Origin: an uncultured Pelagibacteraceae bacterium
GTDB taxonomy: Bacteria > Pseudomonadota > Alphaproteobacteria > Pelagibacterales > Pelagibacteraceae
NCBI GenBank assembly: GCA_902543375.1
Contig: CACBYE010000006.1
Location: 35,762-99,761 of the forward strand
Direction: 5' to 3'
DNA length: 64,000 nucleotides
Of this stretch, positions 10,189 to 27,405 are shown in pieces. The notes under the pieces are model-generated. The model did no database searches and had not been told where the DNA came from. It saw only the letters and a list, made by a program, of their open reading frames with translations. Made by a program: the position numbers and the translations under genes. Position 1 is the first letter of the stretch; every line of letters starts with the position of its first letter.

Positions 10189-10217
10189 CTGTAATAAATT
10201 CTTAACATAACTGAAAT
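10189..10217 (+). promoter_or_regulatory. Possible Pho box upstream of the ars operon
   Basis: Three seven-base units with 11-base spacing: CTGTAAT at 10189, TCTTAAC at 10200 and CTGAAAT at 10211. This is the 7+4+7 direct-repeat layout of a PhoB site and resembles the clearer copies before pstS. If the first two units form the box, AATAAT at 10215-10220 could serve as the -10 element. The repeats are degenerate and AT-rich, so chance is possible. Confidence 0.45.
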
Positions 10218-10239
10218 AATAACAACGAAAGGGGATTTT

Positions 10240-10893: not shown

Positions 10894-11542
10894 AAGCCGC
10901 TATTTTCTTGCTGAACTATTAGGCAGTTGTTTTTTAGTAATGATTATTGTTGGTTCAGGTTTAATGGCTGAAAACTTAACTAATGATGTTGCTGTGATGT
11001 TAATAGCTAATACTATAGCAACAGGAGCAGGTTTATTTGTGCTCATTACAGTATTTGCTGATGTATCAGGAGCTCACTTTAATCCATTTGTAAGTATCGC
11101 AATGACAATAACAGGTAAATTAAAAAAGAAACTATTACCCTACTATATCATTGCTCAATTAGTTGGTTGCTTAATTGGTGTTGGTTTAGCTAATTTCTTT
11201 TTTGAACATGAGATTTATGAATTATCTACTAAGTCAAGAGATGGGATTTACATATTCACATCTGAGGTAATAGCAACATTAGGGCTTATAACAATAATTT
11301 TTGGTTCAATGAAGTCAGGTAAAATTGCTGTTGCTGCTAGTGTTGGGCTTTACATTACTGCAGGTTATTGGTTTACTTCCTCAACCTCTTTTGCAAATCC
11401 AGCTGTTGCTATTGCTAGAACATTTACAGAGTCTTTTACTGGTATTAGTTATTTAAATACTCCTTATTATATTTTAGCTGAGCTTATTGGAATGTTAATT
11501 GCTGTACTTATTGTTAAAAAGTTATTTTTAGAAAAAAATTGA
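10883..11542 (+). CDS. Aquaporin/MIP-family channel, AqpS-like
   Basis: 219 residues with six membrane segments and the two half-helix pore motifs. The first is NPF (N67-P68-F69) rather than NPA; the second is a normal NPA (172-174) with the selectivity-filter Arg at R179. The overlap with arsC and the pattern SFANPAVAIART match the arsenite-permeable AqpS group, so the likely role is downhill exit of arsenite made by ArsC in the cytoplasm. A general solute role (glycerol, small uncharged molecules) cannot be excluded. The Ala-to-Phe change at the first motif could narrow or reshape the pore. Confidence 0.88.
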   Translation: MKNKSRYFLAELLGSCFLVMIIVGSGLMAENLTNDVAVMLIANTIATGAGLFVLITVFADVSGAHFNPFVSIAMTITGKLKKKLLPYYIIAQLVGCLIGVGLANFFFEHEIYELSTKSRDGIYIFTSEVIATLGLITIIFGSMKSGKIAVAASVGLYITAGYWFTSSTSFANPAVAIARTFTESFTGISYLNTPYYILAELIGMLIAVLIVKKLFLEKN

Positions 11543-12030
11543 AAAATATAAAACTTACCAATCGAATAAGTTTAATTAACAAAAAATTTAAAAAAAAAGA
11601 GTTTTATCATTATCTTAAAACTTCTAATCTTTCATTAGTAATACCTAAGATTAAAGACAAATATGTAGTAGTTTCCCAAAAAAGAGTTCCAATTAATAAA
11701 ATTAATTACGAGTTTCCTTCTGGCATAGTGGAAAAAAAGGAAACAACTCTGCAATCAGCATATAAGGAATTAAGAGAAGAAACAGGATATAGATCAAGAT
11801 CAAAATTGAGTAAAATAATAACTTTTTATACTGAACCTGGAAGACTAACTACTAAAATTACTGGTTATTACACAGAAGACTTAATTAAAATTTCGAAACC
11901 AGAACAAGGTATTAGAATTCATCTTTTTAATCAAAGAGAGATATTTAAATTAATATTAAATCAAAAATTCAATAATAGTTCTCATATAGCAATGTTTTTT
12001 TATTTTATAACAGGTCTTAAAAAACTATAA
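11539..12030 (+). CDS. NUDIX hydrolase
   Basis: 163 residues. The Nudix box reads G-x5-E-x7-KELREETGY (starting at SGIVEKKE), matching the consensus with Lys for the first Arg, so the metal-binding EE pair is intact. The EFPSG before it and the overall layout resemble ADP-ribose pyrophosphatases. Translation most likely starts at a TTG at 11539, forming TTGA with the aquaporin stop (4-base overlap); no ATG fits. That makes it the last gene of the ars operon. Substrate is unknown: ADP-ribose, a damaged nucleotide or another nucleoside diphosphate derivative are all possible. Confidence 0.85.
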   Translation: MKNIKLTNRISLINKKFKKKEFYHYLKTSNLSLVIPKIKDKYVVVSQKRVPINKINYEFPSGIVEKKETTLQSAYKELREETGYRSRSKLSKIITFYTEPGRLTTKITGYYTEDLIKISKPEQGIRIHLFNQREIFKLILNQKFNNSSHIAMFFYFITGLKKL

Positions 12031-12485: not shown

Positions 12486-13997
12486 TTATTTTGAATTATT
12501 TGAATAAATTACTCTTGGCTCTAAAAATAATTCTCTAGCAAGAGCTTTAAATCTTTTGGTAACTTGTTTTGAGATTATTTCTTGATGTTGTGATGGAATT
12601 TTTAAAAATACAGCATTACCTCTTTTATACAATTTAAACTCTTCAAGAAATATCGTAGATATCGAGGTCAATGATTGTGAAAATCTCAATGCTGCACCAA
12701 CTTGTTTGCTTGAAAAAATTTCATTATTATTCAAAAAAGTTAAATACTCGATCTTTGGATTATACTTGATACTACAGTACCGCCAATAGCATGACAAAGC
12801 TAATTGTATTCTTTCTTTATGAGTCAATCTAAGTAAAGGAGTATTTATCGTTTCTTGAAATACCAATTCAGCTTTTTGAAATGCTCCCAATCCCCAATCC
12901 ATATGACTTAATACACATGCCAGATATAATAATTTCTTATTAAAGTGCTCATTACCTTCAAAAACTGGATGAATAAAATCATAATATTTTTTATAATTTG
13001 ACCCTAAATCACCTCTTTTTTGCGCAACCTTCTCAATTGCTTTGTAAAAAATTTCAGATTCTTTTACATCTTTAAAATGGTCAATTGATAAAGATCCTTC
13101 ACGCAAACCACTGATAGAACAAATAATTTTTTTTGGATTTGAAACTTTCATAATTTCATCAAGTATAATACAGCTATAAGGTAAATATGGTGTTCTAGAT
13201 TTTGAAATATACTCAACTGTTTTAAGTTTGGATTTATTAAAAGAAGAAACTTTTTCAACAAACTTAGATAAAACATTATTATCAATACTATATTGATGAA
13301 TTATGTGTACTGGATGATTATTTTGAAAAAGATGTAATTTAAATAATGCACGCCAAGTACCTCCAACTAAATATAAATTATTAAATTTCTTTTTTGAGAG
13401 CCATTTTTCATCTCTTAATAATTTTTTAATATATTTTGCTAAATTTCTTTTTTTAACTATAGGATTATTCATTAATCTTAAAACACCAACAGGTAATGAG
13501 GTTTTATTGGTTACTATATTGTTTTCAACTCGGGCTAACTCCAAGCTACCACCGCCAAGGTCAGCAACTAATCCATCAACATTTTCAAAACCTATTTTTA
13601 CTCCCTCAGCTGTGCATTTAGCTTCTTCTTCGCCTGATAATATATTAATCTTAGTTTTAAAAAGTTTTTCAACTTCATCAATAAAAGGTTTTGTATCAGT
13701 TGCTTCTCTCATAACTGCTGTTGCAATAATCTTTAGATTTGTGATTTTTGAAACATTTAAAATTTCAGAAAATCTTTTTAAAACTTTTAAAGCATATTCA
13801 GTACCAGATCTGTGAAGTTTTCTCGATTTATCTAAATTTTTTCCAAGTTCACAAACTGCTTTTTCATTAAAAAAAGGCACACGAGAAGAACTGAAATCTT
13901 CATAAATTAGCATTCTTATAGAGTTTGATCCAATGTCTATTATAGCTAATTTTGCCTGATTTAATTTTAAACTATTTTTACTTTTAATTACTTCCAC
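12486..13997 (-). CDS. ppx: Exopolyphosphatase / pppGpp phosphohydrolase (Ppx/GppA family)
   Basis: 503 residues. The actin-like ATPase fold opens with AIIDIGSNSIRML (phosphate 1 loop near residue 21) and has the second phosphate loop LVADLGGGSLEL near residue 145. A longer C-terminal domain with helical HD-like character follows. The enzyme releases phosphate from the ends of polyphosphate; Ppx and GppA cannot be separated by sequence reading. It overlaps the end of ppk by 14 bases, so synthesis and breakdown enzymes are made together. It belongs to the phosphate-starvation island that extends to about 27.4 kb. Confidence 0.93.
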   Translation of the reverse strand: MEVIKSKNSLKLNQAKLAIIDIGSNSIRMLIYEDFSSSRVPFFNEKAVCELGKNLDKSRKLHRSGTEYALKVLKRFSEILNVSKITNLKIIATAVMREATDTKPFIDEVEKLFKTKINILSGEEEAKCTAEGVKIGFENVDGLVADLGGGSLELARVENNIVTNKTSLPVGVLRLMNNPIVKKRNLAKYIKKLLRDEKWLSKKKFNNLYLVGGTWRALFKLHLFQNNHPVHIIHQYSIDNNVLSKFVEKVSSFNKSKLKTVEYISKSRTPYLPYSCIILDEIMKVSNPKKIICSISGLREGSLSIDHFKDVKESEIFYKAIEKVAQKRGDLGSNYKKYYDFIHPVFEGNEHFNKKLLYLACVLSHMDWGLGAFQKAELVFQETINTPLLRLTHKERIQLALSCYWRYCSIKYNPKIEYLTFLNNNEIFSSKQVGAALRFSQSLTSISTIFLEEFKLYKRGNAVFLKIPSQHQEIISKQVTKRFKALARELFLEPRVIYSNNSK

Positions 13998-16140
13998 TTT
14001 TAATCAATCTTAAGTGCAGTTGTTTAGGCTGCATTCTTAGTTTAGCTTTACCTCTTCCAGATAAGCTCGGATTATTCATAAAATATTCATGAGCTGAAAA
14101 GGAATCGCTCTTACTATATTTAATTTTTTTATAATTACCATCAGCTTCAAGTTCCCAGCTCTGATTAGTATCAAGATAATTTGCCAACATTATTTGATCT
14201 AAGATCTGTTCATGAACAGTCTCATTTTCAATTGGGACTAGAAGTTCTACCCTTCGATTTAAATTTCTTGGCATTAAATCAGCTGACGAAATATATACTT
14301 TTGCATTTCTATTAGGCATTTTTTTTGTGCCATTACTAAAGCAGTAAATTCTAGAATGCTCTAAAAATCTTCCTATGATACTTTTTACAAATATGTTTTC
14401 TGATCTATCTTTTACTCCTGGTCTTAAACAACAAACACCCCTTACAAATAAATGAATTTTTACACCAGCATTCGAAGCTTCATAAAATTTATCAATAATT
14501 TCTGGATCTACTAAAGAGTTCATTTTTGCCCAAATAGCTGCAAATTTTCCATTTTTAGAATTTTTAATTTCAGCATCAATATTTTCATTTAAGGTTTGTC
14601 TCATATTTACTGGCGAAATAGAAATTTTATTTAAATTTTTTGGTTTTGCGTATCCTGTTACATAATTGAAAAACTTTTCAACATCTGATGCCATTTTCTT
14701 ATCACAACTAAATAAAGACAAATCAGTATAAATTTTAGCATTTACTGGATGATAATTGCCAGTTCCTAAATGAAAATAAGTTTGTATTTTACCCTGTTCT
14801 CTTCTTAAAACTAATGATGATTTTGCATGAGTTTTATATTTAGCAAAACCATAAACAATTTGAACACCTACTTTTTCTAAACTTCTTGATAGTTGAATAT
14901 TAGCTTCCTCATCAAATCTAGCTTTAATTTCAATTAAAGCGGTAACTGTTTTTCCGTTTTCTGCAGCTGTTATTAAAGCTTTAACAATAGGTGAGTCTAG
15001 AGTTGTTCTATATAGAGTTTGTTTTATAGCTATAACTTTTTTATCATTTGCTGCTTGGTTTAAAAATTCAATTACTGAGTCAAATGTTTCAAAAGGATGA
15101 TGAACAACTAAATCTTTCTTTTTAATAGTTTCAAAAAAATTATCATTATATTCTTTTAATCTTTCAACTTCTCTAGGTGTAAAATGTTTAAATCTTAATT
15201 TTGGATTTTTTACTTTACATATTTGATCTATATCTTGAATTCCAACAAGGCCAGCAACATCATAAATATAGTCAGGATTTATATCTAATTTATTAGTTAT
15301 AAATCTTATCAATTCGTTATCACTATTTTCAAGAACCTCTAAACGAACAATATCACCCGTTCTACGTCTTTTTAAAGCCAATTCAAAAGATCTAACCAAA
15401 TCTTCTGCTTCCTCTTGAATCTCTACATCGCTGTCTCTTATTACTCTAAAAATCATTTTCTTTTCTAAATCATGATCTGGAAAAATTTCATTAGCAAAAA
15501 AACTTATTACATCATCTAGAATCACAAATTTCTTATGATTTTTTGAAGACTCAATTTCAATAAATCTAGATAATGCTTTTGGTATTACTATTATTGAGTT
15601 TAAAATCCTTTTTTTATTTTTTTTTCTTAGCTTCATTACAATTGCTCTTCCTTGATTGATTATAAATGGAAATGGATGTGCAGGATCAATTGCTGATGGT
15701 GTTAATAAAGGGTAAATCTCTTCTTTAAATATTTCTAAAAGTTTTTTTTTATCCTTAGTATTTAAATTAACTGGTTTAACTAAATTGATATTATTTTTTT
15801 TTAATTCCATAATCAGTTGAATAAAAATTTTGTTCTGTTTTTTTAATAGATTCTTAGTTTCAAGCACTACCTCATCCATTTGCTCTTCAGGTGTCAAACC
15901 ATCAGAGCTTAGTGAGTCAACTTCTTGTTTTATTTGACTATATAACCCAGCTACACGGACCATAAAAAATTCATCTAGATTAGACCCAGCAATTGATAAA
16001 AACTTTACTCTTTCATATAGAGGATTTTCGATATTTTGCGCCTCTAAAAGTACTCTATCGTTGAATTTTAACCAAGAAAGCTCTCTATTTATATATTTAG
16101 ATTTCAACTCTTCTTTATGTTGTTTTTTTAAAGCAGTCAT
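13984..16140 (-). CDS. ppk: Polyphosphate kinase 1
   Basis: 718 residues, typical for PPK1. It makes polyphosphate from ATP reversibly. The N-terminal domain begins YINRELSWLKFNDRVL; the catalytic phospholipase-D-like half contains the phospho-acceptor His in KTHAKSSLVLRR and the motif HLGTGNYHPVNAK, and a second active-site block SSADLMPRNLNRRVE. It is divergent from sixA with only 13 bases between starts, so its promoter must lie within the sixA coding region. Its place next to ppx and the pho/pst genes indicates phosphate storage linked to phosphate supply. Confidence 0.96.
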   Translation of the reverse strand: MTALKKQHKEELKSKYINRELSWLKFNDRVLLEAQNIENPLYERVKFLSIAGSNLDEFFMVRVAGLYSQIKQEVDSLSSDGLTPEEQMDEVVLETKNLLKKQNKIFIQLIMELKKNNINLVKPVNLNTKDKKKLLEIFKEEIYPLLTPSAIDPAHPFPFIINQGRAIVMKLRKKNKKRILNSIIVIPKALSRFIEIESSKNHKKFVILDDVISFFANEIFPDHDLEKKMIFRVIRDSDVEIQEEAEDLVRSFELALKRRRTGDIVRLEVLENSDNELIRFITNKLDINPDYIYDVAGLVGIQDIDQICKVKNPKLRFKHFTPREVERLKEYNDNFFETIKKKDLVVHHPFETFDSVIEFLNQAANDKKVIAIKQTLYRTTLDSPIVKALITAAENGKTVTALIEIKARFDEEANIQLSRSLEKVGVQIVYGFAKYKTHAKSSLVLRREQGKIQTYFHLGTGNYHPVNAKIYTDLSLFSCDKKMASDVEKFFNYVTGYAKPKNLNKISISPVNMRQTLNENIDAEIKNSKNGKFAAIWAKMNSLVDPEIIDKFYEASNAGVKIHLFVRGVCCLRPGVKDRSENIFVKSIIGRFLEHSRIYCFSNGTKKMPNRNAKVYISSADLMPRNLNRRVELLVPIENETVHEQILDQIMLANYLDTNQSWELEADGNYKKIKYSKSDSFSAHEYFMNNPSLSGRGKAKLRMQPKQLHLRLIKSGSN

Positions 16141-16153
16141 ATATTTAGATTTT

Positions 16154-16678
16154 ATGTATCAATTATACGTCATGAGACACGCAAAATCTAGTTGGGATGA
16201 TTTAAGTATTAATGATTTTGATAGACCACTTACTAAAAGAGGCAAGAAAAATGCAAAAATGATTTGTGAATTTTTTGTTAAAAAAAAATTTGAATTTGAT
16301 TATGCATTAATTTCATCATCAAAAAGAACAAAAAAAACTTTTCAAATTTTATCCAAGAAAATTAATAAGCCAAAAAAAGTTAATTTTTCAAAAGATTTAT
16401 ATTTAGTTGATGAGAATGCAATTGTAAAAAAAATTAAAGAAATATCCAGTGAATATAAATCAATTTTGATTATAAACCATGAACCATCAGTGAAAAATTT
16501 AGTACGAAATCTTACAAAAAATCATAATACGAATAATTTTAAACTAATGAATTATAAATTCCCAACAGCAGCATTTGCAAAAATTGAGTTTGATATTAAA
16601 TCCTGGAATGAAGTTGAGAAAAAGGGAGTATTAAAAAAATTTATAAGACCCAAAGATCTTCAAGATTCTAAAGAATAA
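16154..16678 (+). CDS. sixA: SixA-type histidine phosphatase family protein
   Basis: 174 residues from the ATG at 16154 (YQLYVMRHAKSSWDD); an upstream in-frame start at 16061 would overlap ppk and is rejected. The RHAKSSWDD motif carries the catalytic His of the phosphoglycerate-mutase-like histidine phosphatase superfamily and matches SixA, which dephosphorylates phospho-His proteins. A second His is in NHEPS. It is the only plus-strand gene inside the phosphate island, squeezed between ppk and phoB and overlapping the phoB end by 19 bases. A role in signalling is possible, but SixA-like proteins also act on other substrates. Confidence 0.85.
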   Translation: MYQLYVMRHAKSSWDDLSINDFDRPLTKRGKKNAKMICEFFVKKKFEFDYALISSSKRTKKTFQILSKKINKPKKVNFSKDLYLVDENAIVKKIKEISSEYKSILIINHEPSVKNLVRNLTKNHNTNNFKLMNYKFPTAAFAKIEFDIKSWNEVEKKGVLKKFIRPKDLQDSKE

Positions 16679-17343
16679 CCAGCTGATCTTACTGTTCTAA
16701 TTAAAGGTTTTGTATTTTGTATGTTAATTGCTTGTCTTAATCTTCTAATATGAACATCAACTGTTCTAGACTCAACATATATATTTTCTCCCCAAACATT
16801 GTTTAAGAGTTGTTCTCTTGAATAAACTCTTTTTGGATTTTTGATAAAAAAATCTAAGAGTTTAAATTCAGTTGGACCCAAAGTAATTTCTTTATCTTTT
16901 CTATAAACTCTTTTTGTAATCCGATCTATTTTTAAATCAGTAAATTCTACAATGTCTGATGATGATTGAGGTTTAGATCTTCTCAATAAAGATTTAATTC
17001 TAGCATTCAATTCTTTTTGACTAAAAGGTTTAGTTACATAATCATCTGCACCTGTATCAAATGCTTTTAATTTGTCTTCTTCCTCTCCTTTTGCAGTTAA
17101 CATAATGACAGGAATATCATTAAACTTATTATCTTTTTTTAAGTTTTTACAAATTTCAACACCAGATAATTCTGGTAACATCCAATCCATTAATATTAAA
17201 TCTGGCTGTTTTAATTTTATTTGTTTAAGAGCATCTTCTCCATTTTCTGAATGACTGACTTTATAACCTTCTTTTTCAAGATTGTACTTTAACAAACTAA
17301 CAATTGATGCTTCATCTTCAGCTATGAAAACATGAGCTGACAT
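16660..17343 (-). CDS. phoB: Phosphate regulon response regulator PhoB
   Basis: 227 residues. A receiver domain (about 1-120) with phospho-acceptor D53 in LMDWMLP, the T in MLTAKGEE and Lys in VTKPF, followed by an OmpR-type winged helix (about 130-226) ending RTVRSAGYSLE. PhoB binds Pho boxes and activates phosphate-uptake genes when phosphorylated by PhoR. It is last in the pstSCAB-phoU-phoB series, 3 bases after phoU, an order standard in alphaproteobacteria. Its cognate kinase lies 6 kb upstream on the same strand. The 3' end overlaps sixA. Confidence 0.95.
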   Translation of the reverse strand: MSAHVFIAEDEASIVSLLKYNLEKEGYKVSHSENGEDALKQIKLKQPDLILMDWMLPELSGVEICKNLKKDNKFNDIPVIMLTAKGEEEDKLKAFDTGADDYVTKPFSQKELNARIKSLLRRSKPQSSSDIVEFTDLKIDRITKRVYRKDKEITLGPTEFKLLDFFIKNPKRVYSREQLLNNVWGENIYVESRTVDVHIRRLRQAINIQNTKPLIRTVRSAGYSLES

Positions 17344-17346
17344 AAA

Positions 17347-18054
17347 TCATTTTTCTCCGGTTACAATTGGCTCTGTTCCCTTGGGTCTATCACCTTCTAA
17401 ATATTCGCCTTTAACTAAATAATAAACTTGTTCTGCAACATTTGTAGTATGATCACCAATACGCTCTATGTTTTTAGTTACAAACAATAAATGGGTTCCA
17501 TCTTCTAAATTTTTTTCATTTTCTTTAAGATATTTTATAACTTCTTGCATACAAAGATTTGTTAGATCATCTATTTGCTCATCACCTTCCCAAACATTTA
17601 CTGCCATTGGCGCAGATCTTTCTAGATAAGCATCTAATGTTGATTTTAATTGTTTTTGAACATTGGTAGATACTCTATTCAATGAGTCTACCAAGTTCTT
17701 TGGAAGATTTTCGTTAAGCAAAAGTGTTCTCTTGGATATATTTTTTGCTAAATCACCTATTCTTTCTAAATCTGAAGACATCTTCAAAGCCGTTACTGTC
17801 TCTCTTAAATCAATTGCCATAGGTTGTCTTAAAGCAATTAAATTCACAACTTGCTGTTCAATTAAAGTCTCATATTTATCTATTTTTTCATCTTCTTGAA
17901 TAACAGCTTCTGCAATATTATTATCTCTTGTTGTAATGGCTTGAATTGCTTTACCTAAAGAATCTTCACATGCACTTCCCATTTTAATTATATTAGCATT
18001 AAGATTTTTTAGTTCTTCTTCGTAAGATTTGACTGTATGTGGTGCTTCAGACAT
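17347..18054 (-). CDS. phoU: Phosphate signalling protein PhoU
   Basis: 235 residues, two PhoU three-helix repeats (about 17-110 and 120-215). The conserved segments DLRETVTALKMSSDLERIGD and ERIGDHTTNVAEQVYYLV carry the metal-binding E/D motifs of the family. PhoU transmits the state of the Pst transporter to PhoR and limits phosphate uptake. The gene overlaps pstB by one base and is followed by phoB after 3 bases, so it is expressed with the transporter. No unusual feature. Confidence 0.95.
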   Translation of the reverse strand: MSEAPHTVKSYEEELKNLNANIIKMGSACEDSLGKAIQAITTRDNNIAEAVIQEDEKIDKYETLIEQQVVNLIALRQPMAIDLRETVTALKMSSDLERIGDLAKNISKRTLLLNENLPKNLVDSLNRVSTNVQKQLKSTLDAYLERSAPMAVNVWEGDEQIDDLTNLCMQEVIKYLKENEKNLEDGTHLLFVTKNIERIGDHTTNVAEQVYYLVKGEYLEGDRPKGTEPIVTGEK

Positions 18055-18809
18055 TATCCAAACCTCCCTGTTATATAATCTTGCGTTTTTTTATTATCAG
18101 GATTCTTAAATATTTTATCAGTAGATCCATGCTCAATCAATTGTCCTAAATGAAAAAAACCTGTATTTTGAGAAACACGTGCTGCTTGAGCCATAGAATG
18201 AGTTACAATTATTATTGTGTGCTCTTTTTTTAACTCATCAATCAATTCTTCAATTTGTGCTGTTGCTATTGGATCTAATGCTGAACAAGGTTCATCCATT
18301 AATATAACTTCAGGTCTTACAGAAATCGCTCTAGCAATACAAAGTCTTTGCTGTTGTCCTCCAGATAATCCAGTTCCAGGTTCATGCAACCTATCTTTTA
18401 CCTCTTCCCATAGTGCAGCCTTTTTCAAACTAGTTTCAACAATTTCATCCATTTCTTGTTTTGATTGAGCCATACCATGAATTGTTGGACCATAAGACAC
18501 ATTTTCATATAAAGTTTTTGGGAAAGGATTGGGTTTTTGAAAAACCATACCAATTTTTTCTCTTAGTCTTACGACATCACAACTTTTATCATTGATATTA
18601 AAATCATTAATTAAAATTTCTCCTTTAACACTACAGATATCAATTACATCATTCATTCTATTAAGACATCTTAGGAAAGTTGATTTACCACAACCAGATG
18701 GACCAATTAATGCCGTTACTTGATTTTCCTCAATATCTAAACTTATATTAAAGAGCGCTTGTTTTTTTCCATAAAAAACATCAACATCTTTTGCTTTAAT
18801 CTTTATCAT
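18054..18809 (-). CDS. pstB: Phosphate ABC transporter, ATP-binding protein
   Basis: 251 residues if started at the ATG at 18809, which has a GGAG ribosome site seven bases upstream. A possible TTG start at 18830 would overlap pstA by 20 bases and add seven residues, and is less likely. Walker A is GPSGCGKS, the ABC signature LSGGQQQR and Walker B VILMDEP. The helical region [15 protein letters not shown] is diagnostic for PstB. It energises phosphate import through PstA/PstC in the inner membrane. Part of the pstSCAB-phoU-phoB operon. Confidence 0.96.
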
Positions 18810-18810
18810 T

Positions 18811-20079
18811 TTAACTCCATTTTTTCTCAAACTTATGTCTTATTATTTGGGCAAATAAATTCATTATTATTAAAAAGCCAAGTAAGACCATTATACATGC
18901 CGAAACTTTTTCTACAAATCCCCTTTCAGCACTTTCAGCCCAAATATAAATTTGAACTGGTAAGCTTGCAGCAGGATCCATGGGTGATCCAGGTATCGTG
19001 TTAACAAAAGCAACCATTCCAATTAAAATTAAGGGTGCAGTTTCTCCTAAAGCTTGAGCTAAACCAATTATTGTTCCTGATAACGTGCCAGGCATAGAAA
19101 GAGGAACTGTATGATGCATTGTGGTTTGCATTCGACTTGCTCCCATAGCAAGTGCTGCCTCTCTTATACTTGGTGGAACTGCTTTTAAAGATGCTCTAGC
19201 AGCTATAATTATTGTTGGTAAGGTCATTAAGGACAAAGTGATACCTCCAACTAATGGGGTAGACCTTGGTAATTGAAATATAGCCAATAAAACTCCTAAC
19301 CCTAATAGACCAAAAACTATAGATGGAACCGCTGCTAAGTTGTTTATATTAACTTCAATAAAATCAGTAAATCTATTTTTAGGGGCAAATTCTTCAAGAT
19401 AGATTGCAGCTAGAACCGCAACAGGAAAAGCTATCATTAAACAAACAAGTATAGAAAAAATTGAGCCCATAAATGAACTTGCTATTCCAGCTAGCTCAGC
19501 TTCTCTTGAGTCAGCATTTGTAAAAAAACTTATATTAAATTTACTTTCAACCTTACCATTTGCAACAAGTTGATCAAAAATTTTTAATTGATAATCGCTT
19601 ACTCTTCTTTGGTCTTCAGGTAAATCTCTTGGATAATTTCCTTTAAAGACTTGGTCTAAATCATCTGAAGCAGTTAGATAAACTTCCTTTGTTTTTCCTA
19701 TTAAATTAGGGTCATTTAAAAGTTCATTTTTAATTTCTTTTTCAAAAAAATAAGACACCATTCTCTTCAATTCATTTTCTTGATCTTCATTGGCGTTTGG
19801 ATCTAAATCAGCCATTGATTTTAATGCTATATCGTAATAATCAGCGTCCTGTAAATCTTCTTTAGAAGGATTTTGGTCTAACATCATTAATTCAGCATCG
19901 AAAGTTACTGGAACAATAAGCCATGTTTTTTGAAAAGCTGAATAGCCAGTTGAAAAAATTTTAAAAATAAAGATTGTTAAAAATAAAAGTGCCATAAAAA
20001 TTGCACTCAGACCGTATAAGCGAAATCGCTGTTCAGCTTTATATCTTTTATTTAATAATTGTTCTTTATTTTTATTCAT
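18811..20079 (-). CDS. pstA: Phosphate ABC transporter permease with N-terminal extension
   Basis: 422 residues, longer than the ~290 of E. coli PstA. After a first membrane segment (about 23-43) comes a soluble, acidic insertion of about 140 residues before the five-helix permease core, as in alphaproteobacterial PstA proteins with a DUF3333-type domain. The permease coupling loop [13 protein letters not shown] and the [13 protein letters not shown] motif are intact. The insertion is expected to lie in the periplasm and may contact PstS; that is inference. It overlaps pstC by 8 bases. Confidence 0.94.
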
Positions 20080-21457
20080 ATTTTTCTCTATATTTTTTAA
20101 CTACTCTCAAGGCCACAATATTTAAACAAAGTGTTACTAAAAATAATGACATACCTAAAGCAAAAGCAGCTTGCGTTTTTGGGTCGCCAAAAGCTTGGTC
20201 ACCAATTAGAATAACTACAATTTGAGCTGTAATCGTTGAAGTAGACTCTAAAGGATTTAAAGTTAAATTAGCAGCTAAACCAGAGGCCATAACAACTATC
20301 ATTGTTTCTCCAATAGCTCTTGAAACACCAAGTAAAATAGATCCAACTATCCCCGGCAATGCCGCGGGAAAAATAACTCTCTTAATTGTTTCTGATTTAG
20401 TTGCTCCCATAGCGTAACTTCCATCTCTTAAACTTTGAGGCACACTTGTAATGACATCGTCACTTAAACTTGAAATAAATGGTATAATCATAATACCCAT
20501 TACCCCTCCTGCTGCTAAAGCACTTTCAGCTGAAACTTCAAGACCCATTGAAGTTCCTAATTCTTTCAAAAATGGTCCAACAGTTAGGGCAGCAAAAAAA
20601 CCATAAACAACTGTTGGTATACCAGCTAAAATTTCAATTAATGGTTTTGCATATTGTCTAACTTTAGTTGATGCATATTCAGCTAAATAAATTCCACTCA
20701 TTAATCCAATTGGGATAGCAACGCACATAGCAATAAATGCAATAAAAAAAGTACCTGCAAAAATAGGGACTGCTCCAAAAGTATCTGAATACATTGTCGG
20801 ATCTAAAGCCTCAGAAGAATCTCTAACAAAAGCTTTTGCTGGATACCAGTGAGTTCCAAAGACAAAATCAAATAATGGAATTACTTTAAAAAAATCTATA
20901 GTTTGAAATATAAGTGAGAAAACTATTCCAACAGTAGTTAATATTGCAGCTAAAGAAGCTGTAAATAAAACTGCGTTCAAAAATTTTTCAACTGGTTCTC
21001 TTGTTCTAGAATTAGATGAAATTCTTTTATACGCATAAGCAACAGAGGCAATAATTGCAGATAATACTATAACAACTTTTGAACTTTGAGCTATTGATCG
21101 AAGACTTAAATATTTTTCAGCTGAAGCTTCAATAAAAGGTGTAATTTCTCCAGTGAATTGCCCTCGAGACAATGCTTTTGATTTTTCGTATAATAAATTT
21201 AATTCATCATCAAGATAACCTTGATTTGAATAATCACTTAAGATTAATAGTTTTACAATTGTGGGCTCAAAAATTGCCCATAATGAAAAAATTATAAAGG
21301 CTGGTATTGCACACCAGATTGCAAGATAATAACCATAAAACTGTGGTAATGCGGTTAATCTTTTTTTTGTAGATTGAATTGTATATGCTTTTTTGCGTCC
21401 AAAATAATAGCTTGTGAAACCTAGAAGAACAATAAATGTAAATAATATTAAGTTCAC
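20072..21457 (-). CDS. pstC: Phosphate ABC transporter permease PstC
   Basis: 461 residues, again longer than the E. coli protein because of an N-terminal section with additional membrane helices (about 1-20, 45-70, 125-145) and a soluble loop. The core permease has the coupling loop RDGSYAMGATKSE and VSRAIGETMIVVMASG. It pairs with PstA to form the channel. It is separated from pstS by 91 bases containing an intrinsic terminator, so its expression is probably only a fraction of that of pstS. Confidence 0.94.
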   Translation of the reverse strand: MNLILFTFIVLLGFTSYYFGRKKAYTIQSTKKRLTALPQFYGYYLAIWCAIPAFIIFSLWAIFEPTIVKLLILSDYSNQGYLDDELNLLYEKSKALSRGQFTGEITPFIEASAEKYLSLRSIAQSSKVVIVLSAIIASVAYAYKRISSNSRTREPVEKFLNAVLFTASLAAILTTVGIVFSLIFQTIDFFKVIPLFDFVFGTHWYPAKAFVRDSSEALDPTMYSDTFGAVPIFAGTFFIAFIAMCVAIPIGLMSGIYLAEYASTKVRQYAKPLIEILAGIPTVVYGFFAALTVGPFLKELGTSMGLEVSAESALAAGGVMGIMIIPFISSLSDDVITSVPQSLRDGSYAMGATKSETIKRVIFPAALPGIVGSILLGVSRAIGETMIVVMASGLAANLTLNPLESTSTITAQIVVILIGDQAFGDPKTQAAFALGMSLFLVTLCLNIVALRVVKKYREKYE

Positions 21458-21492
21458 AGAATCTCCTTAAGTGAGGACTTTACTCTTTTTTT

Positions 21493-21524
21493 AAAAAAAA
21501 GGGGTCTAAAAAGACCCCCTTTTT
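21493..21524 (-). terminator. Intrinsic terminator between pstS and pstC
   Basis: Read on the minus strand, GGGGTCT... pairs as AGACCCC (arms 21512-21518 and 21501-21507, 4-base loop) and is followed by eight T residues (21500-21493), a textbook rho-independent terminator. It lies after the pstS stop and before pstC in the same direction, so it probably acts as a partial terminator that sets PstS above PstCAB. Confidence 0.9.
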
Positions 21525-21548
21525 AATCATTTGTTAACTGAGGAATAA

Positions 21549-22580
21549 TTAATTACCCATAGCAACTAGCTTCGTAGCATTAGTTCTAGTTGTTTTATAC
21601 AACTTAGAGTCTAATGGCACTAAACCAATGTCTGCTAAGTAACCACCTTTTCCAATAGCTTTCTTAGTTGTGAATTCTTTCACAAACTCATGTAAGCCTG
21701 GAATTACTCCAACGTGTGCTTTTTTCACGTAGAAGAATAAAGGTCTAGCAACAGCATAACTGTAGTCTTGAATAGACTTTAATGACGGTTGTCCACCATC
21801 AATACTTGCTGCTTGCAATTTATCTTTTGCAGCTAAGAAATAACTGAAACCAAAGAAACCAAACATTTCTTTATCTTGAGTTAACTTTTGGATGATTAAA
21901 CTATCGTTTTCTCCAACTTCAATAGCAGCACCATCTTCTCTGTAAAGTTTTTGAGGTTTTTTGTATTTTTTATTTCCAGCTTCAAAACCAGCTTTATAAA
22001 GAGCTTTAGCTTCTTTAGTCATACCTTTTTTCATTACTAAAGAATTCCAAGCATCTCTAGTTCCTGATGTTCCTGGTGGGATCATCACTGAAATTTTTTG
22101 TTTTGGTAAGCTAGGGTCAATTTGGTCCCAAGTTTTATAAATATTTGGAACTAATTTACCATCAACAACTGTATGAGCAGCAAGTGCTAAATATAATTGT
22201 TCTTTAGTAAAGTTTACTGGTTTTGCATCTTTGCTGTAAGCTAATGTAATACCATCGTTACCAATTACGATCTCAACGATATCATTAACACCATTTTTCT
22301 TACATAGAGCTTTTTCTTTATCTTTCATAGCTCTTGATGCATTTGTAATATCTGGATGTTGTTCACCTACACCAGCACAGAATAGTTTAGCTCCACCACC
22401 AGTACCAGTAGACTCGATTACAGGAGTTTTAAATCCTGAACCACCAAATCTTTCAGCAACAACTGTTGCATAAGGGAATACTGTAGAAGAACCAACTATC
22501 TTAATTTGATCTCTTGCTTGAGCAACAGTTGCAATTGAAAGTGCAACTAAAGAAGCAATTACTATAGTTAGTTTTTTCAT
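21549..22580 (-). CDS. pstS: Phosphate ABC transporter, periplasmic phosphate-binding protein
   Basis: 343 residues with a signal peptide (about 1-22, ending VAQA). The phosphate-binding segments KIVGSSTVFPYA, ESTGTGGGAKLFC and PPGTSGTRDAW are all present. PstS captures phosphate with high affinity in the periplasm. Its codon usage looks richer in C and G than that of neighbours, as expected of a highly expressed gene. Upstream lie a triple Pho-box-like repeat and, downstream, a strong terminator, consistent with strong induction under phosphate limitation. Confidence 0.97.
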   Translation of the reverse strand: MKKLTIVIASLVALSIATVAQARDQIKIVGSSTVFPYATVVAERFGGSGFKTPVIESTGTGGGAKLFCAGVGEQHPDITNASRAMKDKEKALCKKNGVNDIVEIVIGNDGITLAYSKDAKPVNFTKEQLYLALAAHTVVDGKLVPNIYKTWDQIDPSLPKQKISVMIPPGTSGTRDAWNSLVMKKGMTKEAKALYKAGFEAGNKKYKKPQKLYREDGAAIEVGENDSLIIQKLTQDKEMFGFFGFSYFLAAKDKLQAASIDGGQPSLKSIQDYSYAVARPLFFYVKKAHVGVIPGLHEFVKEFTTKKAIGKGGYLADIGLVPLDSKLYKTTRTNATKLVAMGN

Positions 22581-22648
22581 TTTTTAATCCTTTCGTTATT
22601 TATTAATTAAAAGATGATTGACTCGTATAAATTTTTTGAATCTTTAAT

Positions 22649-22677
22649 ATTACAGAATTGTTACACTTTTGTTAAAA
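22649..22677 (-). promoter_or_regulatory. Pho box (three repeats) upstream of pstS
   Basis: On the minus strand the units TTTTAAC (22677-22671), GTGTAAC (22666-22660) and CTGTAAT (22655-22649) recur every 11 bases with four-base AT spacers. This is the direct-repeat layout bound by PhoB. It ends 68 bases upstream of the pstS start. A TATACG element at 22629-22624 is a possible -10. Confidence 0.8.
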
Positions 22678-22687
22678 AGGTAACTTT

Positions 22688-23296
22688 TTAGTTGTATTTT
22701 TTTGATATAATTATTTGATCAATATCAGTTTCTAAGCCACCAATACATGAAACAGGGTTTACCTGTTCATTAAGAGCTAGTTCTTTGGTTGGACGTAAAG
22801 TTATTTCTAGTTTTACTAAGTTTACTAATTCCTCTCTAATTTCTTCATCATATCTCCAGCTTGGCCATGAACTTGGGGTTGAAAATATAGAGGTTAAATA
22901 GCTTGTAGCCATAGTATATCTATAATTACTCAAATTTTCATTCCTCAATAAAAAATCTCTTACAGAATTAAAAATATTCCTACATCTAAAAGAATCTGAA
23001 AAATAATTTTCCTTCTTGAGATTTCTATTCATAGGAACAGAAACAATTAAATCAATTGAATTTTTAGAATACGAGGTAACTACGTCTGTATAAAATTCAG
23101 CTTCAGTAACTTCTAAATGATCTTTAATAGAAGGATATGAAGTTTTCAAATCTGCCTCTAATCTAAAAATTCCAATATCAAAAACTGTAAGTTGCTGATT
23201 TCTTAATAATGTTGTGATATCTTTAGAAAAAACACTTGTTGTTATAGAGCTTAATAAAAAAGCAAAAATCAAAATATTTTTGAATATTTTAACCAT
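22688..23296 (-). CDS. Exported protein of unknown function in the pho cluster
   Basis: 202 residues. A signal peptide is clear (about 1-24, ending SVFSK); the mature part is about 178 residues, soluble, mixed alpha/beta in composition, with two Cys (in SFRCRNIF and VSCIGG) that could form a periplasmic disulfide. No known motif is recognised. It lies between phoR and pstS, all on the same strand, with the pstS Pho box just after its stop. The context suggests a periplasmic role in phosphate stress or PhoR signalling, which is inference only. Confidence 0.75.
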   Translation of the reverse strand: MVKIFKNILIFAFLLSSITTSVFSKDITTLLRNQQLTVFDIGIFRLEADLKTSYPSIKDHLEVTEAEFYTDVVTSYSKNSIDLIVSVPMNRNLKKENYFSDSFRCRNIFNSVRDFLLRNENLSNYRYTMATSYLTSIFSTPSSWPSWRYDEEIREELVNLVKLEITLRPTKELALNEQVNPVSCIGGLETDIDQIIISKKYN

Positions 23297-23387
23297 ATAA
23301 AAAAATTAATTAAAAGATTAACATTAATCAAGTAAAGAATTGTTAAAAAAACCTTCTAAAACTATTACAATATAATATTTTTTAAAT

Positions 23388-24533
23388 TTAAGTTTTCGCT
23401 GGTAAATAAATTTGAATTTCAGTTCCTTGGTTTTCCTCACTTAGAATCTCATAGTGTCCACGATGTTGAGTAACTATATGTTTAACAATAGCTAATCCTA
23501 AACCGGTTCCACCAACCTTGTTACTTTGTTCAAGATCTACCCTAAAAAATCTTTCTGTAATTCTAGAAATATATCTTTGAGGAATGCCAACACCTTCGTC
23601 TTTAATACTGATCATAAAATTTTTTTCTAACAATTTACCGTCGCTAATTTTGCTTGATATAAAAATAGACTTATTTTCCTTTGAATACTTAATTGCATTA
23701 TCTAAAAGATTAGAAAAAACAGTTTGTAAATTTTTTTCATCTCCAATAACAACTGTTGGATTGGCGAGAGATAAATTAATATTTAATTTCTTTCTTTTTA
23801 AAATAATCTCAAAATTACTGATGATTGTTTTGAAAAGATCATTTATATCAACTAAAAAGTTTGGCCTTATGTGTTCTTCTAATTCAATTCTTGTGAGTAT
23901 TAAAAGATCATTAATTAAATTTTCCATTCTATTTGATTGATCAGTCATTATTTTCATAAATTTTTTTTTAGCCTTTTCATCATCTGACGCTGGGCCCTCA
24001 ATTGTTTCTAGTGATCCTTTGATTGCCATTAAAGGTGTTCTTAATTCATGGCTTACATTTGCTACAAAATCAGTTTTAAATTTTTGTGCTTTTGTAATTT
24101 CAGTAAAATCTTTTAAAAATAACACAACGGAGTCTGGTTCAGTAAACAAATGAGTTGGGCCAGGAATAATATAAATTTTATAGAATTGATATGATGGGAG
24201 GTCTATTTCAACATCGATATTTTTTGTTTTATTTTCTACGATAGCTTTTTCAATATTTTCTATTAATTCTGGTTTTCGAATTATAGAAGATATGTTTTTA
24301 TCAATTAAATTACTTCCAAATCTTTTTAATGCACTTGGATTGGCATATTTAATTATGTTAAATTTATTTAATGCAAAAAATTGATCTTCAAGCTCATCAA
24401 TAATTACTCTTTTTGTTTTTTCTTCTCTTTTATTAACTATTGTAGCGGTATTTATTGATTTATTTTTTTTTTGATTAAGTAAATAGAGAAGATAAACTAT
24501 CACAACTATAAGTAGAATGACGAAATATTCCAT
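23388..24533 (-). CDS. phoR: Phosphate regulon sensor histidine kinase PhoR
   Basis: 381 residues. One N-terminal membrane segment (about 3-19), a PAS-like domain (about 45-145), then a HisKA domain with the phospho-acceptor His in FVANVSHELRTPL and a HATPase domain with N box LLDNAIKYS, DEGVGIP and GGTGLGLAIVKH. This short PhoR architecture with a single anchor and no periplasmic sensor domain fits sensing through PhoU/Pst. It lies upstream of pstS on the same strand, separated from phoB by the pst genes, and follows agt by 65 bases. Confidence 0.92.
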   Translation of the reverse strand: MEYFVILLIVVIVYLLYLLNQKKNKSINTATIVNKREEKTKRVIIDELEDQFFALNKFNIIKYANPSALKRFGSNLIDKNISSIIRKPELIENIEKAIVENKTKNIDVEIDLPSYQFYKIYIIPGPTHLFTEPDSVVLFLKDFTEITKAQKFKTDFVANVSHELRTPLMAIKGSLETIEGPASDDEKAKKKFMKIMTDQSNRMENLINDLLILTRIELEEHIRPNFLVDINDLFKTIISNFEIILKRKKLNINLSLANPTVVIGDEKNLQTVFSNLLDNAIKYSKENKSIFISSKISDGKLLEKNFMISIKDEGVGIPQRYISRITERFFRVDLEQSNKVGGTGLGLAIVKHIVTQHRGHYEILSEENQGTEIQIYLPAKT

Positions 24534-24598
24534 AAATTTAGATGGCTTAATTTTGCATCATTACACTTTTTAATGCAAATAAATTAAGGAAAAATTAA

Positions 24599-25606
24599 CT
24601 AATGATTTGGTGAAATATTGTTAAAAAATATTTTTGCTGTTTCTTCCCAAGTGAATTTTTTTGCAAATTCAAGACAATCATTTCTGTCAACTTTTAAAGC
24701 TTTTTGTGCTGATACTTTAAGATCATCATCTAAACAATTTATTTTGGATCCTTCAAATATATCTTTAGGGCCTGGAACAGGATACGCAGCAACAGGTGTT
24801 CCGCAATTTAAAGCTTCTGTAACTACAATTCCAAATGTATCTGTTTTACTAGGGAAAACAAAAACATCAGAGGATGCAAAATGTGATGCTAATTCACCAT
24901 TTGTTTTTTCTCCTAAAAAAATATCTTTAGGGAATTCTTTTTTCAATTTTTTTAAATCAGGTCCTTTTCCTATAATTATTTTTGTACCTTCTAAATCACA
25001 TTCTAAAAAAGCTCTTATGTTTTTTTCAACTGCAACTCTTCCAACATAAATCCAAATAGGTCTTTTATGAGGTAAATCAATTTTTTTAGGGTTCTTAAAA
25101 GCTCCATGATTTCCTCCTCTAGTCCAAGTAATCATTTTATTGTCATCTATACCTATATCGATTAATTCTTTTCTCATAGACTCTGTAGTTACTAAAATTC
25201 TCTCAGCCTTATTATGAAAATTTGCTAAGAATTTTTCAGCCCATTTTGCTGGTATAATAGGAAAGTAAAGTTTTAGATATTTATCAAATCTTGTATGGAA
25301 ACTCGTAGTAAACTTTAGATTATTTTTTAAACAATATCTTCTTGCCATAGTGCCTATCGGGCCTTCGGTAGCGATATGAATTGCATCTGGATTGATTTTC
25401 TTTATTAAATTACCAACTCTTGGCCATACATTTATAGACAACTTAATTTCATTATATTTCGGCATCGGAAAAGTAAAAAATAAGTCAGGTGTAATATATT
25501 CTATTCTATGACCTTGTTCTTTTAATACATTACCTGTTTCATGTAAGGTTCTTACGACACCATTTACTTGTGGAAAATATGCATCTGTAGCAATTAAAAT
25601 TTTCAT
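24599..25606 (-). CDS. agt: Glycosyltransferase family 4, Agt-like glycolipid synthase
   Basis: 335 residues with a GT-B fold. The N-terminus (TDAYFPQVNGVVRTLHETG) and the C-terminal donor-binding block (SKTDTFGIVVTEALNCGTPVAAY with the EX7E-type acid residues) mark GT4. It closely resembles in layout the glycosyltransferase that follows plcP in SAR11 and other bacteria and adds sugar to diacylglycerol to make glycolipids during phosphate starvation. It begins 3 bases after the plcP stop, so the two are co-transcribed from the Pho-box promoter at about 26.49 kb. The sugar transferred (glucose, glucuronic acid) cannot be read from the sequence. Confidence 0.82.
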   Translation of the reverse strand: MKILIATDAYFPQVNGVVRTLHETGNVLKEQGHRIEYITPDLFFTFPMPKYNEIKLSINVWPRVGNLIKKINPDAIHIATEGPIGTMARRYCLKNNLKFTTSFHTRFDKYLKLYFPIIPAKWAEKFLANFHNKAERILVTTESMRKELIDIGIDDNKMITWTRGGNHGAFKNPKKIDLPHKRPIWIYVGRVAVEKNIRAFLECDLEGTKIIIGKGPDLKKLKKEFPKDIFLGEKTNGELASHFASSDVFVFPSKTDTFGIVVTEALNCGTPVAAYPVPGPKDIFEGSKINCLDDDLKVSAQKALKVDRNDCLEFAKKFTWEETAKIFFNNISPNH

Positions 25607-25609
25607 TAA

Positions 25610-26422
25610 TTATGAAGCTTTTTTTAATTCTTCAGTTTTAATTGGTTTAATTATTTCTTTATCGTCTAAATATTGTTCTCTTATTTTGTCCCAATATAAT
25701 ATTTCAAAACTACCATCATAATTTTCGGCTAATGCGGTACAAGATTCAACCCAGTCTCCACAATTTAAATAATTGACCCCATTAAAGTCTCTATCCTCAG
25801 CATGATGGATGTGGCCACAAATAATTCCATCAAATTTTTTTCTTTTTGCATAATCTGAAAGTGTTTTTTCATATTCACCAATATATTTAACTGCATTTTT
25901 GACTTTATACTTTAAAAATTTTGCAAGAGACCAATATTCTTTTCCTCTCAATCTTCTAAAAAAGTTAATTATTACATTTAATTTTAATAGTAAATTATAG
26001 GCTATTGATCCAAGTTTAGATAACCATTTAGCATGTTTCATAACACCATCCCAAGCATCACCATGAACAACAACATATTTTTTTCCTGCATTTGTTTCAT
26101 GAATAACTCTATTAACCATATGGATGTCACCAAAATGCATTGGAATAAATTTTCTTAACATTTCGTCATGATTACCCATTATGTAGAAAACTTTGGTACC
26201 ATGTCTAGCTTTTCTTAAAATTTTTTGGATTACATCATTATGTTCTTGAGGCCAAAAAAAACTTTTTTGCATTTCCCAGATATCTATAATGTCCCCTACA
26301 AGATAAAGATTTTCGGATCTTGAGTTTTTAAAAAACTCTAAAAGTTTTTTCGCCTGACAACCCTTGGTACCTAAATGAACATCAGAAATAAATATACTTT
26401 TATATTTAAGTAAATTAGGCAT
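25610..26422 (-). CDS. plcP: PlcP-like metallophosphoesterase (phospholipase C)
   Basis: 270 residues. All five motifs of the calcineurin-like dimetal site are present: SDVHLG, VGDIIDIW, GNHDE, VVHGDAWDG and GHIHHAE. The family includes LpxH, but lipid A synthesis in this genome has LpxI (61.5 kb), which does the LpxH reaction, so this enzyme is free for another task. Its coupling to a GT4 gene, its place beside phoR-pst and an upstream Pho box match PlcP, which removes the phosphate headgroup from membrane phospholipids to release diacylglycerol. It probably acts at the inner face of the membrane. Confidence 0.85.
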   Translation of the reverse strand: MPNLLKYKSIFISDVHLGTKGCQAKKLLEFFKNSRSENLYLVGDIIDIWEMQKSFFWPQEHNDVIQKILRKARHGTKVFYIMGNHDEMLRKFIPMHFGDIHMVNRVIHETNAGKKYVVVHGDAWDGVMKHAKWLSKLGSIAYNLLLKLNVIINFFRRLRGKEYWSLAKFLKYKVKNAVKYIGEYEKTLSDYAKRKKFDGIICGHIHHAEDRDFNGVNYLNCGDWVESCTALAENYDGSFEILYWDKIREQYLDDKEIIKPIKTEELKKAS

Positions 26423-26446
26423 TTAAAGACCTATATTTTAATACAA

Positions 26447-26464
26447 CTGTAACACGAATCATGT
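26447..26464 (+). promoter_or_regulatory. Possible Pho box toward the lipid kinase gene
   Basis: CTGTAAC at 26447 followed after 4 bases by the degenerate unit ATCATGT, on the plus strand, 57 bases before the 26521 start. Only the first unit fits well. Confidence 0.4.
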
Positions 26465-26484
26465 ACTTCTTATTTCATTTGAAT

Positions 26485-26502
26485 GTTACAAATTTGTTAA
26501 AA
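26485..26502 (-). promoter_or_regulatory. Pho box upstream of plcP-agt
   Basis: On the minus strand TTTTAAC (26502-26496) and TTGTAAC (26491-26485) are separated by four bases, the same 7+4+7 pattern and nearly the same units as before pstS. It ends 62 bases upstream of the plcP start. Confidence 0.7.
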
Positions 26503-26520
26503 ATTTTTTAAGGATTAATT

Positions 26521-27405
26521 ATGTTATGTTGTTTGATTTATAATTTGAATTCTTCCTCTGGAAGAAAATCTATATTCATAAATAGGATTTTATCTAAGTT
26601 AAAAGAGAATATTTCTGTAGACTACTTTGAAACAAAAACAATAAATCAAGCTAAGAAAATTTTCAAAAATTTTAATCAAAAAAATTATGATCGACTAATA
26701 GTAGCTGGTGGTGATGGTTCAGTTTCTTTTGCAATTAATGAATTAATTAAAAATAATTTTGATTTTAAAGACAATTTTGCCATAGGTTATATTCCTGCTG
26801 GCACTGCAAATTTGCTTCAAGCTGAATTATCAATGAATAAAAAAGTTGATGATATAGTAAATGTGTTGGTTTCTAATAATTATAAATCCTCTAATCTTGT
26901 AAAAATTAACGATAATTATTTCTTTTTAATGGCTGGTATAGGATGGGATGCAAAAATTGTTCATTCAATTAATTCAAAAATTAAAAAGATTCTAGGTAAA
27001 ATTATATTTGGTATCAAAGGTTTTCAATATTTCTTGTTTATGAATAATAAAAAGTTAAATGTCACTTTTGATGGTCAATTTTATCAAGCAGACTGGATAT
27101 TATCTTCAAATACCAAATATTACGCTGGACATCATAAAATAAATAAAACAAATATTTTTGAAGAGAAATTAGTCACCTATATATTTAAAGATTTGACTAG
27201 GATTAGTTTATTATATTCAATTTTTTTAATAATTCTTAATGGTGATTTAAGTAAAAATAAAAATGTTATTACTACTTATGCACAAAACATTACAATTGAT
27301 GGAAATGATTTGATACCTGTTCAAATTGATGGAGATAATTTTGGTTCATATAAAAAAATTCATTTAAATCTATCAAATAAAAAAGTGAATTTTCTTGTAA
27401 AATAA
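26521..27405 (+). CDS. Diacylglycerol kinase-like lipid kinase
   Basis: 294 residues. The DAGK catalytic domain shows the nucleotide loop AGGDGSVSFAINELI and the IPAGTANLLQAEL motif, with the conserved terminal segment VQIDGDNFG. The family (DgkB, YegS, BmrU) phosphorylates diacylglycerol or related lipids. It is divergent from plcP-agt across a 98-base region with Pho-box-like repeats on both strands. Making phosphatidic acid from the diacylglycerol that PlcP releases would return it to phospholipid synthesis, or balance glycolipid formation; which of these is unclear. It meets manC end to end with no gap. Confidence 0.85.
   Translation: MLCCLIYNLNSSSGRKSIFINRILSKLKENISVDYFETKTINQAKKIFKNFNQKNYDRLIVAGGDGSVSFAINELIKNNFDFKDNFAIGYIPAGTANLLQAELSMNKKVDDIVNVLVSNNYKSSNLVKINDNYFFLMAGIGWDAKIVHSINSKIKKILGKIIFGIKGFQYFLFMNNKKLNVTFDGQFYQADWILSSNTKYYAGHHKINKTNIFEEKLVTYIFKDLTRISLLYSIFLIILNGDLSKNKNVITTYAQNITIDGNDLIPVQIDGDNFGSYKKIHLNLSNKKVNFLVK

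Follow-up and report, generated by a model that had tools for sequence, protein, structure and literature searches.

A lipid kinase gene (dgk) lies head-to-head with the lipid-remodeling genes plcP and agt in a 64,000-nucleotide stretch of contig CACBYE010000006.1 (assembly GCA_902543375.1), from an uncultured Pelagibacteraceae bacterium of the SAR11 group. We refer to this whole stretch as the window. The 98-bp gap between plcP and the kinase contains one putative PhoB-type site toward each gene. We consider it fairly probable that the locus forms a Pho-controlled branch point, at which diacylglycerol made by PlcP would pass either to glycolipid through Agt or back to phosphatidate through the kinase. 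The source genome comprises 1.07 Mb in 20 contigs and is 91.8% complete; scans were run over the 64-kb window. The central features are as follows.

24599..25606, minus strand: agt, GT4 glycosyltransferase (Pfam/NCBIfam and residues)
25610..26422, minus strand: plcP, metallophosphoesterase (PF00149; agt directly downstream)
26437..26454, plus strand: Pho-type site facing the kinase, made of two units, 66 nt upstream of the kinase ATG (rank 3 in the 18-bp form, 19.6)
26484..26512 (29-bp form) or 26484..26501 (18-bp form), minus strand: plcP-facing Pho-type site (rank 2, 19.6 in the 29-bp form)
26521..27405, plus strand: dgk, DgkB/YegS-type lipid kinase (DAGK_cat, PF00781, 75.4 bits, over the cut-off of 23.6)
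22648..22676, minus strand: Pho box of pstS with three units at 11-bp spacing, 67 nt upstream of the ATG (rank 1 in the 29-bp form, 37.9)

The plcP–dgk control region

Pho-type sites were scored on both strands with a matrix trained on nine distinct pstS boxes from the window and its relatives, in 29-bp and 18-bp forms. In the 18-bp form, the pstS, plcP-facing, and kinase-facing sites were the top three matches. The kinase-facing site scored only 5.9 in the 29-bp form, whose fourth-ranked match (14.4) fell inside a manC-like gene at 27952. Direct repeats of 11-bp period, a trait of the Pho regulon seen at pstS, were also found in the plcP/kinase region, and the Pho-box-like repeats that a preliminary description of this DNA had reported in both places were recovered as top matrix matches. 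The distances from site to ATG were similar (67 nt for pstS, 61 nt for plcP, and 66 nt for the kinase). The two sites are crossed, in that each lies just upstream of the start codon of the gene it does not face (the plcP-facing site is 19 nt from the kinase ATG); a regulator bound at one site could therefore weaken the promoter of the other arm and determine how the two arms are balanced.

Across SAR11, all 32 distinct intergenic regions (from 43 loci) had the plcP-facing site (p 0.01 or less), the sequences being related rather than independent. A kinase-facing site was present in 22 of the 32, the window included, at 63–66 nt before the kinase, and the pstS sites of the same genera lie 66–71 nt from the start. 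The same regions were examined for GANTC (CcrM-type), which occurs at 22620, 22638, and 26456 in the window, in 31/31 distinct SAR11 plcP/kinase regions (3.7 expected), and in 13/15 pstS upstreams (3.3 expected). Control through CcrM is not claimed: GTNAC, which is contained in the Pho box, was as common (29/31 and 14/15), and across the window GANTC between genes was no commoner than GTNAC.

The 25610..26422 product matched PF00149 at 49 bits (cut-off 21.5) and fell far under both LpxH cut-offs (49.1 vs. 134 and 39.2 vs. 190.35); it is predicted to act as PlcP rather than LpxH. The agt gene begins 3 nt behind plcP and encodes GT4 domains with L56, H104, T162, R163, and W320 (counted by eye), which are among the residues named for GTcp in PMC8231724. 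PlcP–Agt remodeling, the biochemistry of agt, and Pho boxes at plcP clusters have been published (PMC4796936, PMC8231724, PMC9239053). The locus resembles the systems described there from HTCC7211, Agrobacterium, Erythrobacter, and Methylosinus in its plcP-then-agt order, its upstream Pho box, and H104/R163/W320, whereas no head-to-head kinase is mentioned for those systems, the word "kinase" being absent from the main texts of PMC4796936 and PMC9239053. Our literature search found no description of a head-to-head plcP–kinase pair.

The window kinase belongs to the DAGK_cat lipid kinase family by its PF00781 match and its DgkB fold. DgkB was its closest solved structure both by sequence and by fold (21% identity to Staphylococcus aureus DgkB, 2qv7). 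The nearest named kinases were 80 loci of uncultured Pelagibacteraceae (SAR11) genomes at 73–100% identity. Ratios of nonsynonymous to synonymous polymorphism (pN/pS) of 0.09–0.23 in six comparisons indicate purifying selection, which argues against decay of the kinase. Diacylglycerol is its likeliest substrate, because PlcP is expected to make diacylglycerol and Agt to use it.

Distribution of the pair in the order and the class

Pairing within the order was surveyed in 147 genomes, counting PF00781 matches over the cut-off (three matches under it were dropped). The kinase was found in 51 genomes and plcP in 74: 50 carried both, 1 the kinase only, 24 plcP only, and 72 neither (Fisher p 1.5e-19, ignoring kinship). 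Forty-nine of the 51 kinases were head-to-head with plcP at <200 bp. The preliminary description had proposed that a divergent lipid kinase shares the control region of plcP–agt; the gap with facing sites in the window, and the like arrangement of these 49 kinases, bear this out. Both exceptions belong to genus g4 (kinase 38–40% identical). The G109 kinase is transcribed divergently from pstS; that of G097 sits next to a contig end, where the sequence resembles the G109 pstS box. Three plcP genomes of the window's family were without the kinase, and in two of these plcP lies <50 bp from a contig end on the kinase side. The window kinase is the sole diacylglycerol-kinase gene detected in its genome. 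PF01219 (DgkA-type) was found in 1 of the 147 genomes, at G026:C1:559751-560047, a SAR11 genome without a plcP or DAGK_cat match.

The class sample comprised 289 alphaproteobacterial genomes, including this one, with kinase matches listed to E ~1e-13. Initially 102 genomes showed plcP, and 97 were kept after dropping five with a partial or under-40% match. At least 69 of the 97 also held a listed DAGK_cat kinase, and agt was directly downstream of plcP in 93. The head-to-head pair occurred in 46 plcP genomes of 32 families (this genome and 45 from 31 other families); among the matches listed for the 97, a kinase adjoining plcP in any other orientation was found 0 times. The kinase was non-adjacent in 23 plcP genomes, for most of which only the best-listed kinase was taken, and 10 of these hold a kinase of the same family (one at a contig end); among the family's kinases in plcP genomes, about 46 out of 56 are therefore paired. 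One genome without a plcP match (G419) carries the kinase head-to-head with agt itself. A second such pair, in G325, was ruled out by a gene between the two (orotate phosphoribosyltransferase by eye).

Forty-five of the 46 paired kinases were checked by tree. A 99/99 branch separated 44 linked and 15 SAR11 kinases, together with 2 unlinked ones, from seven other unlinked kinases, with the bootstrap not settled; of 16 unlinked kinases, the 7 missed by a first hidden Markov model (HMM) were left out. An HMM of the linked kinases split 56 further kinase loci into those over 250 bits and those under 195.

Sites outside SAR11 were sought in 44 of the 45 linked gaps (G369 was left out as belonging to the same genus as G266). 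A PhoB-type repeat of 11-bp period was found at p 0.02 in 24 of the 44, or 26 with 800 shuffles, whereas control periods of 8, 9, 10, 12, 13, 14, and 15 gave repeats in 1, 5, 0, 2, 5, 4, and 3 gaps. Kinase-facing sites occurred in 12, 15, and 17 of the 44 in three shuffle runs, vs. 0 of 18 unlinked same-family kinases, whose upstream stretches may be operon-internal (Fisher p 0.013, 0.003, and 0.001 by run). Five of the 23 same-family kinases were unused in this control (2 at contig ends and 3 from genera already sampled). Among 20 sampled from the 51 plcP genes without a paired kinase, the site faced plcP in 8 and faced away in 2.

The phosphate island around the pair

The pair lies at one end of a phosphate-starvation island, which reaches left into an arsenate-reductase/aquaporin operon. 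The remaining features are listed below.

10190..10218, plus strand: Pho-type site of the arsC operon, 21 nt before the first ATG (rank 3 in the 29-bp form, 16.1)
10240..12030, plus strand: DUF6552, LMWP/ArsC-type reductase, MIP aquaporin, and NUDIX genes (open reading frames, Pfam, NCBIfam)
12486..13997, minus strand: ppx, exopolyphosphatase family (TIGR03706, 265.1 bits, below the cut-off of 307)
13984..16140, minus strand: ppk1 (1044.8 bits, over cut-off)
16154..16678, plus strand: sixA-like phosphohistidine phosphatase (70.5 bits, cut-off 74.5)
16660..17343, minus strand: phoB (329.6 bits, over cut-off)
17347..18054, minus strand: phoU (220.5 bits, over cut-off)
18054..18830, minus strand: pstB (NCBIfam, over cut-off)
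18811..20079, minus strand: pstA (NCBIfam, over cut-off)
20072..21457, minus strand: pstC (NCBIfam, over cut-off)
21549..22580, minus strand: pstS (PstS family, 135.9 bits, below the cut-off of 206.6)
22688..23296, minus strand: predicted exported protein of 202 aa, no known family (no Pfam/NCBIfam match; predicted local distance difference test score (pLDDT) 82.7)
23388..24533, minus strand: phoR-like histidine kinase (279.9 bits, below the cut-off of 334.2)

Open reading frames and family matches (Pfam, NCBIfam) placed the run ppx-ppk-(sixA)-phoB-phoU-pstBACS-unknown-phoR-agt-plcP and the divergent kinase where the preliminary description had put them, and the comparison across SAR11 genomes that it had called for showed that relatives in genera g1 and g5 share the gene order of the block. 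By eye, sixA probably starts at 16154 rather than 16061. At three f2 loci (L044, L045, L049), plcP–agt is kept with sixA, ppk, ppx, phoR, and pst genes, and neither the kinase nor the exported protein gave a match there. In L034, L035, and L036, the proteins from phoB to agt are 90–100% identical to those of the window, with plcP at 82–83% and the kinase at 59%; this mosaic suggests a recombination end between agt and plcP. Four further loci (L037, L038, L039, L040) hold ~1.6–1.8 kb of additional DNA between agt and phoR, space for a gene. A small lysine-rich open frame with a stretch resembling a ribosome-binding site was seen by eye at 12110–12319, between the NUDIX gene and ppx. A proteasome-subunit-like gene (PF00227, 9442–10170) adjoins the island; the SAR11 genes reported as over-represented at the Bermuda Atlantic Time-series Study site (BATS; PMC3686209) include one for 20S proteasome A/B. 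In the betaproteobacterium Mitsuaria sp. 7, a plasmid (L233) has ppk1 after plcP and a Ppx/GppA gene alongside, placing lipid remodeling beside polyphosphate genes again.

The cluster is known in outline from published islands. The phosphate island fGIp-C of HIMB59 (PMC10734472) shares with it pst, phoU, phoBR, ppk, ppx, sixA, a diacylglycerol kinase (DGK), a phosphoesterase named LpxH, a glycosyltransferase named RfaG, Wzb, and GlpF. As described in that account, the DGK and the glycosyltransferase are listed without a direct phosphorus function, whereas here both are linked with plcP and Pho-type sites.

SAR11 relatives keep the 202-aa predicted exported protein in its place between pstS and phoR, and its cysteines C105 and C184 are invariant across 30 aligned sequences. 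It matched no Pfam or NCBIfam family at E 0.001, and comparison of its modeled fold gave no clear match. We regard it as a candidate accessory of phosphate sensing.

The site before the arsC operon was absent from the preliminary description and emerged from the matrix scan; with a Pho-type site there, arsenate defense is probably switched on together with phosphate uptake. Fourteen relatives were fetched. Sites upstream of DUF6552 scored 10.5–16.7 in 11 of the 11 that carry this gene (no shuffles); of the other three, two scored 2.0 and 3.2 upstream of arsC and one had no arsC match. In the relatives, the DUF6552 sites end 23–32 nt from the start, a shorter distance than at pstS that weighs against a Pho role. 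The operon resembles the SAR11 LMWPc_ArsC–AqpS pair (PMC6426599), an arsenate reductase followed by an aquaporin in low-phosphate strains, and arsC of HTCC7211 rose 2.3-fold at low phosphorus in that study. In contrast, the window operon is led by a Pho-type site and DUF6552, and the passages of PMC6426599 on the pair report no Pho box.

A probable Pho-controlled branch point for diacylglycerol

Phosphate starvation would likely switch on both arms through the PhoB-type site facing each side, with PhoB binding and activating at both. PlcP is predicted to cut phospholipid to diacylglycerol and Agt to convert diacylglycerol into glycolipid, and the kinase would likely return part of the diacylglycerol to phosphatidate. 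Such a phospholipid–diacylglycerol–phosphatidate cycle would cost ATP and be about phosphorus-neutral, because PlcP would free one head-group phosphate for each phosphate added by the kinase. Such cycling would hold the pool of free diacylglycerol down and allow the membrane composition to revert once phosphate is available again. The regulated branch point suggested in the preliminary description thus gains a shared control region, facing sites, and pairing across the order and the class; the substrate of the kinase and induction at low phosphate are the parts that we infer. A broader reading, which we offer tentatively and hold to be somewhat doubtful, is that dgk and plcP–agt form an ancient, class-wide, PhoB-controlled module for partitioning diacylglycerol, with a tunable and reversible phosphorus-neutral cycle, and that some SAR11 clades rewired the kinase from PhoB-activated to PhoB-occluded by loss of one box.

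Several observations weigh against the branch point. Up to 28 of the 97 plcP genomes of the class were without a listed kinase and 21 f2 genomes carry plcP without it, so the kinase arm is dispensable. None of the six plcP loci examined on named replicons (Sinorhizobium, Shinella, Methylobacterium, Sphingomonas, Mitsuaria, and Thiodictyon) had a same-family kinase within 3 kb. The kinase family also occurs away from plcP among assorted neighbors: of 20 kinases sampled in genomes that gave no plcP match, 13 fell in the high-scoring group, which rules out a family exclusive to plcP. Outside SAR11, the site weights were set by us from a consensus, and 18–20 of the 44 gaps, by run, showed no site at p 0.02. 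The contrast between linked gaps and lone plcP genes for sites facing away from plcP is weak (12–17 of 44 vs. 2 of 20; p 0.19, 0.066, and 0.02 by run). Within SAR11, no kinase-facing site was found in 10 of the 32 regions (p 0.07 or more), and there the edge of the plcP site lies 1–14 nt from the kinase start, a misfit with activation of the kinase by PhoB. With the kinase-facing site present in 22 regions and absent from 10, the wiring differs between SAR11 clades: in the clade of the window both arms would be PhoB-activated, and elsewhere the kinase would lack a site or possibly be blocked.

The crossed sites would also fit the opposite control, in which PhoB at the plcP-facing site activates plcP–agt and blocks the kinase, and the return of phosphate frees the kinase to recycle diacylglycerol to phosphatidate, as a reset switch. 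The plcP-facing site is the constant one in SAR11, with its edge 1–19 nt from the kinase start in all 32 regions, and the sole one found in 10. We nevertheless think this control unlikely, as the kinase-facing site of the other 22 regions stands at nearly the distance of the pstS sites, and kinase-facing sites recur in 12–17 of the class-wide gaps. In Pseudomonas putida BIRD-1, moreover, DagK rises with PlcP on phosphate depletion and is called PHO-dependent (PMC5082522); this precedent for the branch point comes from a gammaproteobacterium, whose DagK was compared by description. Passive co-location, in which phosphate genes move together on a genomic island with the kinase as a passenger, was already disfavored and appears highly improbable. 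The flexible phosphate islands reported for HIMB59 (PMC10734472), the mosaic identity of L034–L036, and the family members away from plcP would suit it, but a pair that is divergent in 46 of 46 cases across 32 families with facing sites, the lack of any site at 18 unlinked relatives, and the g4 kinase divergent from pstS speak against it.

A different doubt concerns the enzyme. The DAGK_cat family includes kinases with several substrates, and the window kinase scored under the TIGR00147 (YegS/Rv2252/BmrU) cut-off (99.1 vs. 118.65) and under the other NCBIfam lipid-kinase cut-offs, at subfamily and equivalog level. The glutamate of the GGDGTxNE-type motif, present in S. aureus DgkB, is kept in 44 of 44 linked relatives, whereas SAR11 g1/g5 kinases read GGDGSV[SC]F (14 of 14 aligned; SVSF in the window). 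These residues also count against the branch point, since substrate or activity may have shifted in the g1/g5 kinases. The substrate could accordingly be a different lipid (monoacylglycerol, a glycolipid, or the phosphatidylglycerol reported for YegS), or the kinase could have lost catalysis in SAR11. We judge this improbable: DgkB is the nearest solved structure, the partner enzyme is predicted to make diacylglycerol, the kinase is under purifying selection, and eukaryotic diacylglycerol kinases carry an aromatic residue at the position of the lost glutamate. The tree placed the window kinase inside the linked group despite that loss.

Published remodeling schemes, as outlined in the accounts cited above, run one way, from phospholipid to glycolipid; a kinase paired with plcP–agt suggests that a return path belongs to the programme. 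The kinase is apparently wired to the regulator of plcP–agt in 32 families, and no other diacylglycerol kinase was detected in SAR11 genomes with the pair. The pairing agrees with published data in which a SAR11 gene cluster for diacylglycerol kinase is enriched in seas low in phosphate: PMC3686209 gives 0.785 at BATS, 0.215 in the Mediterranean, and 0 in the Red Sea and at the Hawaii Ocean Time-series (HOT), with the SAR11 clusters of kinase, phosphoesterase, glycosyltransferase, and 20S proteasome-like genes over-represented at BATS. The most abundant bacteria of the ocean would thereby gain a testable means of controlling diacylglycerol.

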